From: a virus
IMG/VR virus record: IMGVR_UViG_3300020445_001188
Coordinates: 1 to 56,977 of that record
Strand: one strand, 5' to 3'
DNA: 56,977 nucleotides
The position numbers and the translations under genes were made by a program. Under the pieces are notes generated by a model that did no database searches, had not been told where the DNA came from, and saw only the letters and a program-made list of their open reading frames with translations. Positions 562-16,800 of the stretch are shown here, piece after piece (the stretch's first letter is position 1; each line of letters opens with the position of its first letter).

Positions 562-700
562 ATTCATTTTTGGATGTGTGTGCATCTTTATGGGTGTTAA
601 CATTCTAATCAATGTTATGAATAGCACAATGGTTGACAGTTGGGAAGAGAGGAACAGGACACTTCAAGAACTGACACAACCAAACCCCATTCAACCCTAA
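554..700 (+). CDS. Putative 48-aa membrane protein, GTG start
   Basis: A GTG at 554 overlaps the end of the 457-561 frame in another phase. It gives a 48-aa product with a hydrophobic N-terminal segment (residues 2-22, including FIFGCVCIFMGVNILI) and a polar tail rich in Glu, Arg, Gln and Pro. The layout is that of a small single-span membrane protein. The non-ATG start and short length leave doubt. It is the last gene before the structured RNA candidate. Confidence 0.45.
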   Translation: MIRFIFGCVCIFMGVNILINVMNSTMVDSWEERNRTLQELTQPNPIQP

Positions 701-718
701 AATCAAGTATATTATAAA

Positions 719-829
719 TGTGGGGGATGGTTCGATTCCATCACTAACGTGGATACGAAGATCTAGGTCTAAAGATTCGTGAACTGCTTCTAAGAAGAGA
801 AAGCACGAAATTACTAGGTCATTCCCACA
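719..829 (+). ncRNA. Structured RNA candidate with a tRNA-type T-arm
   Basis: This gene-free stretch closes with a 6-bp stem (TGTGGG 719-724 with CCCACA 824-829). Just inside is a perfect tRNA T-arm: GATGG 726-730, loop TTCGATT, CCATC 738-742. A third helix can form from TAACGTG (745-751) with CACG (804-807) plus TTA (811-813), bulging AAA. It encloses hairpins at 755-780 and 786-804. A GG at 817-818 is placed like the D-loop GG. The order of arms is that of a circularly permuted tRNA-like domain. No CCA, anticodon or tag frame is visible, so it is not a standard tRNA or tmRNA. Confidence 0.45.
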
Positions 830-850
830 ATCAATTTTACAGGATTTTAA

Positions 851-1090
851 ATGAATTTATTTGATGCAGTTCCAACAGTTGTAAGAGACAATTTTCAAGG
901 ATACGACAAGGGTGAATCAATTTCAGTTAAAGAGATCACCAATGCAGTATTTCAAGTAATTGATCTATGTGACAACTTTGACAAGGACACCATCAAAATG
1001 ACAACATTTAGACAAATCCGTCTAATGGTCTCAAATGGTGTTGATATGTTACTCAATGACCCGATTCAATTTAACGAGGTAATGTTCTAA
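851..1090 (+). CDS. Hypothetical protein (79 aa)
   Basis: A small acidic protein with two predicted helical halves. It starts just after the structured RNA candidate, preceded by an AGGA at 840-843. The stop overlaps the ATG of the nuclease-like gene (TAATG), so the pair is probably co-translated. I do not recognise the family and see no catalytic or binding motif. Coupling suggests it may work with the downstream nuclease-like protein, but that is inference only. Confidence 0.6.
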   Translation: MNLFDAVPTVVRDNFQGYDKGESISVKEITNAVFQVIDLCDNFDKDTIKMTTFRQIRLMVSNGVDMLLNDPIQFNEVMF

Positions 1091-13846: not shown

Positions 13847-16800
13847 ATGAAGGCTATTACCGTCTCAAATAGGGTGCAGGACCAGATACCTGCATTCATA
13901 CGAGAAGATAACGAACAATTTGTCAATCTTCTTTCAGAATACTATAGATCTCAAGAGAAATCAGGTCGTCCGTATGACATACTGAATAATATCTTAAGAT
14001 ACACTGATATAGGTTCTGGAGAGTTTGATCCTAATTTCCTATCTTCACAATCTGCTGTGTTGGAGAAGGTTGATCCTACTCAAAAGGATATTGTTGCTGA
14101 GAACGTTAATTATTTCTTAGAGAAAGATGGTACGGTACAAATTGATAATGAGGTAATTTATTACGAGTCTGTTACTCATTCTCCTGACATTGTATTCACT
14201 CCTGGTGTTAATAAGGCAGAATTTGATCGTAAAATACAAGAATTTGAACCAATATCTTCACAATTTGATAATAGTCAGACTTTATTTAATCTTAGACTTT
14301 TAGGTAAGCCAGTTTCACCACAAACTGCTGATCATCTCTTAGTTGTTGTAAATAACGAATTTTTATTCCCAAATATCGACTATTTTATCGAAGGTGATAA
14401 GATACGTCTTCAGAACCCTCCTGCTCCCCCTACAGGAGAACTTACAGGTGCTATTAATACTATTCGGTACCTTATTGGTTACACAAGCATCCCAGTACGT
14501 TCTATAGACACTATTACTGTTAGTGGTGATTCTAAAGAATTTAATTTAACGAACAATAATAACAAATATACTCCATTATCAACTGTTTCAACTATAGTTG
14601 TTGTAGACAGAGTAGAAAAGCGTCCTTATGAAGATTTTACTATCTTCGAAGATAAGTTAATATTCAAGAATGATGTTGCAGAGAATTCAGTCATAAATCT
14701 CAGATCTATTGAGATGATAGCACCTGAGTTCGGTGCTGGTGCTACTGCTATTGCAGATATTGAACAAGGTGTTGTAGATAAGGTTATTGTTAAGAATGGT
14801 GGTAGTGGATATAGACTAAGTTTTGCTCCAAAGATCAGTATTGCGTCTACTAAAGGTCCAGGATTCGGTGCTACTGCTGAAGCATTAGTAAATGGTATTA
14901 AAGATACTAGATTACTCTTTTCAGGACAAGGTTACTCTGCTAACAACCCTCCTATCGTTGTAGTTGACCCTCCAGTGGATCCTGAAGGCAAGACTGCTCA
15001 AATTAGGGCAATTGTTGATGATTCTATTGAAGGGGTCTCACAACTCATTGTAGACAGTTCTGGAAGTGGTTACGATAAGATTCCATCTATCAGTTTTGTT
15101 AATCCTGGTGGTGCAACCATTACTCAACCAACACTTCACACAGGATCCATCCAAGATGGGTCTATCACTGTTGTAGATAGTGGTTCAGGGTATACAACAC
15201 CTCCATTAGTGTATTTGGATGAACCAACTGGTGATAATGCTATAAGAGCAAACGTTGTTGCAACTATTGATCAATATGGACGTGTTAATGGAATTACTAT
15301 TGTATCAGGTGGACAAGGATATGTAACAACACCTAGGGCAAAGATTATCGATCCTGTAGGTGCTCAAATACTTGATGTTTCAGTTACTGGTGGTAGAGTT
15401 ACTAATATTGAACTATTAACTGGTGGTGCAGGTTATACTGATGCTCCATCTGTGTATATTGTTGATAATAGGAAGGATATTGCTGGTGCACCAGCTGGTG
15501 GTACTGGAGCAACTGCTGTTGCAACCATATTCAACGGAGAGATTACTGATATCAATATAACCAGTTTTGGAAGTGGATACTCAGATGAAGAACCACCTAA
15601 AGTCTTTATTGCTGCTCCACCTGCTCCAGAAGCGTCTTGTGACGTTGGATTTGGTGAGATTACTGGATTTACCATCCATAATGGTGGATCTGGATATCAA
15701 CCATCTGCTTTTGTTAATTGTAAGCGTGGTGTTTCATCTGTAAGTTCATTTGATCAGAAAGGTAATCAAGTTTACTCTAAAGAAGCGGATACTGTTCAGT
15801 CTTCTCACGAGGTTGGGTCTACAATACATAACCTCGATACACTATTTGCTAAGGAATTATACAGAAGGTACGTAAATCAATATCTTCCTAATGCGGAAAT
15901 TGACTATGAAAAGGTAAATGCTCCGCAAATTATCAAGACTATTAGTGATTTCTACGCATCTAAAGGTACGAAGATCTCTACACAGTACCTCTTTAAGATG
16001 CTATTCTCTGAAAATGTGGATGTATCTTATCCAAAAGATGAGGTTATTAAGCCATCTGCTGCATCTTGGAACGTAGATACAGTACTTCGTGCGGAACTTA
16101 TGAGTGGAGATCCAGCTGATCTTCTAGATTCACAGTTAATTCAGTATGTAGATCAGGTAGATATCAATGTTAAAGGTGCATCTGCACTGATTGAGAACGT
16201 TATTTCCATCAATACTGGTGTAGGAACCATATATGAACTTGCTATATCCGAGGAAACACTACAAGGTACATTCACTATACCTTACAAAACAACTCTTGTA
16301 GAATCACTTGACACTACAGAATCGATCATTACTGTTGACTCTACGATTGGTTGGCCAGAAAGAAACGGTACAATCCTTATTGATGACAATGAGGAGGTAC
16401 AGTACAAGGAGAAGACTCTTAACCAGTTCATCGAATGTACACGTTCTGAGAACGGTGTTGTGGAGGATTGGGACGCAGGTACCACAATTTACTCAGAAAT
16501 TTTTGTATATGTGAATCGTGGTCTTCCAAATGAGATAAAAATGCGTGTTTTGGGTATTGCAGATGCAAAATCCACCGTATTGACAGATACTGGTTCATAC
16601 TACCTACCTGGTGACAAATTAAACGTTGCATCTCTTGGATCTACTTCTGTGGATCAACGTATCACTTCTTGGTTATATAACGTCAAGAAACTGATTAATG
16701 TTGATGGTGTTGTACCTGGTGGTCTTAATAATCAGACTGCAACCGTAACTTGCTCTAATAAGCACGGTCTTCTTGTTGGTGACACTGTTACTATCTACGG

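Follow-up and report, generated by a model that had tools for sequence, protein, structure and literature searches.

The 56,977-nt window, comprising positions 1 to 56,977 of the IMG/VR record IMGVR_UViG_3300020445_001188 on one strand, carries a conserved structured RNA of about 110 bases at positions 719–829 (+), a new RNA family that by its sequence context would lead a message in some cyanobacteria-infecting ocean viruses. The existence of this RNA, its fold, its conservation, its genomic position and its absence from the known families tested were established by computation. The record is a fragment of a T4-like marine cyanophage, as indicated by a 2403-residue protein with ~49% identity to Kyanoviridae isolate proteins over its first 1000 residues as well as by the presence of a Kyano_Gp96 gene. 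The element and its surroundings contain the following features, where L003, L006 and L081 denote the homologous contigs that together with the window provide four distinct sequences:

671–678 (+): CTGACACA element common to four promoter regions, at a similar distance upstream of the RNA in the window, L006, L003 and L081; putative function
708–713 (+): −10-like hexamer TATATT; in all four sequences, TATATT or TATTAT precedes P1 by 5–6 nt
719–829 (+): structured RNA; covariation in four distinct sequences and covariance-model match to L081
719–725 (+): 5' strand of the closing stem P1, 7 bp with 823–829; G-C to A-U compensatory change in L081
726–742 (+): T-arm with a 5-bp stem and the loop TTCGATT at 731–737; A-U to G-C compensatory change, invariant loop
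748–757 (+): mini-hairpin CGU-GGAU-ACG with a D-loop-like GG; RNAalifold prediction
760–766 (+): 5' strand of helix P3, 7 bp with 814–820; two compensatory pairs in L081
776–809 (+): base of P4 (776–778/807–809) and variable tip; second pair U-A, C-G or G-C
814–820 (+): 3' strand of P3; same basis as 760–766
823–829 (+): 3' strand of P1; same basis as 719–725
841–844 (+): Shine-Dalgarno sequence AGGA; 11–12 nt past P1 in all four sequences
851–1090 (+): first ORF behind the RNA, 79 residues, no known family; an Api92-like gene in its place in L081

The fold proceeds from P1 to the T-arm, the GG mini-hairpin and a long arm consisting of P3, P4 and the variable tip. The perfect T-arm that the original prediction had placed directly inside a closing stem is indeed found there (726–742 within 719–725/823–829). 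Its sequence, GATGG-TTCGATT-CCATC, displays the 5-bp stem, the G53–C61 pair and the TTCRANY loop of a tRNA-type T-arm, and a perfect arm of this type occurs once in the window, compared to 10 of 300 dinucleotide shuffles of 57 kb (mean 0.033). P1 and the T-stem together amount to exactly 12 bp capped by the T-loop. The proposed acceptor-like helix enclosing hairpins corresponds to the 7-bp helix P3 (760–766/814–820) further in, with nested hairpins inside. A D-loop-like GG is also present, although not after this helix as had been proposed, its best candidate being the mini-hairpin 748–757 between the T-arm and P3. The three pairs of this mini-hairpin are invariant, with one pair more in L081, and without covariation it is the weaker part of the fold.

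Folding z-scores for the element were about −2.5 to −2.9, and RNAalifold, with no structure supplied, recovered the same fold. When the window sequence was folded on its own, an alternative hairpin at 731–759 (UUCG..CGAA) won by 0.5 kcal/mol. We rejected it, as one of its pairs is broken in L081; there, the optimal fold contains the T-arm and the hairpin is worse by 2.7 kcal/mol. The T-arm is thus real, because the rival hairpin is not kept in L081, and the broken pair together with its energetic cost renders a conserved two-state switch via 731–759 unlikely.

The element was found in six further IMG/VR contigs, yielding, with the window, seven contigs and four distinct sequences. In five of the further contigs it lies upstream of the same 79-residue gene as in the window. 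The seventh contig, L081, contains a diverged copy that was found with a degenerate pattern and scored 95 bits with the covariance model, in a neighbourhood of the same kind with Kyano_Gp96 and gp25-like baseplate wedge genes. All 25 tested pairs form in all four distinct sequences and five pairs, distributed over P1, the T-stem, P3 and P4, show compensatory changes, compared to 0–1 when the partners were slid; with four distinct sequences this set is small, so that exact statistics are not to be pressed, and the mini-hairpin pairs do not vary. The window and L006 differ at 4 of 111 bases, corresponding to two compensated pairs. Between L081 and the window 91% of the 5' 58 nt are kept, compared to identities of 45% and 52% for two nearby proteins, showing that the RNA is better conserved than the neighbouring genes. 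The length of the element changes by +13 and −4 nt among the homologues, which disfavours a reading frame within it. Together, these data show that the RNA structure is under selection. Homologues keeping the T-arm with the other helices broken, against which the prediction was to be checked, were not observed; the other helices are kept, with covariation. The tip of P4 is exchanged in L003 and shortened in L081. In L003 (937–1060) and L005 (4616–4739) an unrelated stretch, 13 nt longer and with two predicted hairpins, occupies its place with the remainder of the RNA unchanged, so that the tip resembles an exchangeable module.

The covariance model gave no true match in 18 cyanophage records of the phage collection, BLAST with both variants against all phage records of the collection did not find the element itself, nor was it found in other viral records related by their neighbouring genes. 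A descriptor search of the locus set, using the T-arm with an adjoining 7-bp closing stem, returned this family and three true-tRNA neighbourhoods only. A covariance-model match in S-PM2 (E 0.047) lies within a tail-fibre gene with P3 broken and was attributed to chance, and weak matches in MN695335, L125, L076 and L082 were set aside likewise. Based on the covariance model or inspection by eye, the 11 pattern matches in genome contigs and those in the viral loci L079, L080 and L082–L094 lie in coding sequence, correspond to true tRNAs or are unrelated stretches.

The arms of a tRNA follow the order acceptor, D, anticodon, T. With P1 taken as the acceptor, the element reads acceptor, T, D-like, long arm and does not form the cloverleaf of a tRNA. 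Its T-stem extends P1 along the 5' strand, while the T-stem of a tRNA is continuous with the acceptor on the 3' strand, and since the gap between P3 and P1 comprises only 2 nt, a D-arm cannot come after the long arm. The circularly permuted tRNA or tmRNA order that had been proposed for this RNA is therefore not supported: a rotation starting with T needs T, acceptor, D, anticodon, whereas here the T-arm is followed by the GG mini-hairpin and the long arm, an order that no rotation of the tRNA order yields. Instead, the T-arm occupies a transposed position, which amounts to a non-circular rearrangement relative to tRNA, and a tRNA-like elbow could be assembled in another order. The readings as a riboswitch-like T-loop RNA and as a tRNA mimic, both named in the original prediction, are live. 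As it had also stated, CCA, anticodon and tag are absent from the element. ARAGORN and Rfam detected no tRNA or tmRNA in the window, and no Rfam 15 family reached the gathering score there, with one unrelated chance match at E values up to 10.

Several known systems share part of these properties. The yjdF riboswitch (PMC9142559) resembles the cyanophage RNA in that a structured leader precedes the Shine-Dalgarno sequence of the mRNA and adopts a tRNA-like fold with counterparts of the T-loop and the D-loop. However, the arms of yjdF fit a tRNA cloverleaf drawn in the usual order, whereas the cyanophage RNA has the T-arm first, and the off state of yjdF pairs to the Shine-Dalgarno sequence, whereas no conserved pairing of this kind and no Rfam match to yjdF were found for the element in the window. 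A sequestration of the Shine-Dalgarno sequence by 696–704 appeared in one fold of the window only and is broken in the homologues. The bacterial Y RNA YrlA (PMC8394870, PMC11472068) likewise has paired 5' and 3' ends, an internal tRNA-like domain with a T-loop and a length of ~110 nt. YrlA corresponds to a circularly permuted tRNA, in contrast to the non-circular element of TYMV (PMC11472068), and partners with Ro60/Rsr, whereas the cyanophage RNA does not follow the permuted order and gave no match to the YrlA covariance model (RF02553); no Ro60/Rsr (TROVE) gene was found in the 11 records searched, all of them fragments. tmRNA, including the permuted two-piece tmRNA of cyanobacteria, shares the canonical T-arm beside another helix, but the cyanophage RNA lacks an acceptor strand after the T-arm, CCA and a tag frame, and the ARAGORN and Rfam searches were negative. 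The TYMV-type tRNA-like structures (PMC4810234, PMC11472068) are viral RNAs with a T-arm in a non-circular arrangement as well. These, however, occupy the 3' ends of the genomes of RNA viruses and use an acceptor pseudoknot, whereas the cyanophage RNA would open the mRNA of a DNA phage at its 5' end and is predicted to fold without such a pseudoknot.

The RNA is situated between a promoter, assigned by sequence only, and a Shine-Dalgarno sequence, and no terminator was found between the RNA and the ORF, a layout that makes a 5' leader the simplest reading. Ahead of the −10-like hexamer, ACTGACACA is present in all four sequences, and in P-SSM2 a similar CTGGCACA together with TATAAT-like stretches precedes small genes. 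A sigma-70 consensus scan did not report the hexamer at 708–713, as a good −35 is lacking. A T4-late promoter TATAAAT at 713–719 was rejected, since L003 and L006 read AATAAAT. From this position, the T4-late start distance would put the start inside P1. The late motif used for this comparison was taken from PMC3037559.

We assign a probability of just under one half to the reading that this compact tRNA-like RNA opens an early-type mRNA at its 5' end in one group of T4-like marine cyanophages and acts in cis, where the label early-type is suggested by the host-like −10 box and the small-gene neighbourhood. Transcription would start at ~719–720, the T-loop would dock with the GG mini-hairpin to yield a tRNA-elbow-like core, and the folded leader would act in cis on the genes behind it, probably by enhancing translation via contact with the ribosome or with a host factor that binds tRNA and probably also by shielding the 5' end from decay. 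We infer modification by TruB/TrmA in addition, and control by a ligand or a protein, as in a switch, is possible. tRNA-like leaders and grafted tRNAs raised translation 2- to 6.3-fold in vitro, and according to the work on yjdF even authentic tRNAs upstream of a Shine-Dalgarno sequence can do so (PMC9142559). The covariation, the consensus fold recovered with no structure supplied, the T-arm optimum of L081, the lack of a terminator, the conservation above that of neighbouring genes and the fixed spacing of promoter, RNA and Shine-Dalgarno sequence in all four sequences argue for the leader, whereas its occurrence in only seven contigs, with no isolate among those searched, and the failure to find a conserved pairing to the Shine-Dalgarno sequence argue against it. 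The exchange of the downstream gene, encoding the 79-residue protein in the window and an Api92-like protein in L081, disfavours a gene-specific switch and keeps a trans-acting role alive. The more far-reaching proposal of a new phage RNA class, with the elbow in non-circular order at the 5' end of early messages, recruiting ribosomes or host tRNA-handling proteins and pseudouridylated in tRNA-like manner, appears rather doubtful.

The different downstream gene in L081 makes a processed, trans-acting tRNA mimic the main rival of the leader. The RNA, cut from the transcript or ending by an unseen route, would then bind a host tRNA-handling factor such as TruB, TrmA, EF-Tu, RNase P or an anticodon nuclease, serving as substrate, decoy or guard. 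Retention of the element despite the exchange of the downstream gene would fit this role, as would the T-arm being canonical at every loop position and the modification of YrlA, another free tRNA mimic, by TruB (PMC8394870). On the other hand, the lack of a terminator after the element, the Shine-Dalgarno spacing held at 11–12 nt and the lack of CCA or a mature 3' end signal are at odds with a free RNA, and we consider it somewhat unlikely.

RNase P could also cut a longer transcript at 718/719 and thereby define where the downstream mRNA begins, since the 7+5-bp stack of exactly 12 bp with its T-loop resembles the acceptor–T half of a tRNA and tRNA mimics are known RNase P recruiters (PMC4810234). 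Such a processing signal seems quite improbable, given that the inserted domain lies on the opposite strand compared to tRNA, the 3' RCCA is absent and the promoter read from the sequence already puts a start there. A chance or vestigial tRNA fragment devoid of function is conceivable insofar as a T-arm of such quality is expected 0.03 times per window by chance and such hot-spots in cyanophages commonly have tRNA genes nearby (PMC3037559). This highly improbable reading is already contradicted by the covariation, with compensatory changes in P1, the T-stem, P3 and P4, as well as by a conservation above that of the neighbouring genes.

For phages of abundant photosynthetic bacteria, the element represents an additional RNA family that is supported by covariation and unmatched in Rfam 15. 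Should an elbow be formed by the T-loop and the GG loop, the RNA would represent a tRNA-like fold with its arms rearranged in a non-circular manner, and it would offer a direct test of whether phages equip early messages with tRNA-like leaders for the benefit of their own translation.

The T-arm may have originated from a tRNA. In S-PM2 (NC_006820; L122 44–522) genes for tRNA-Met, tRNA-Asn and tRNA-Leu lie just upstream of a 2OG-Fe(II) oxygenase gene, and in the window a gene of this type follows ~1.8 kb downstream of the T-arm RNA. A promoter-like layout, consisting of TGRCACA, often a C-rich/G-rich hairpin, and then a TATAAT-like box, recurs in cyanophage intergenic gaps, with instances at 671–719 and 2017–2070 of the window and at 1418–1465 of L077; as such, it matched no published motif in this analysis. 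Further downstream, after a baseplate wedge gene, positions 13847–39565 (+) form a single frame of 8572 residues of the virion structural or fibre type, with phrog_701 (profile of 6136 residues) as its best match, which far exceeds the 3779-residue 'short tail fiber' frame that neighbours the 2OG-Fe(II) oxygenase gene of S-PM2.
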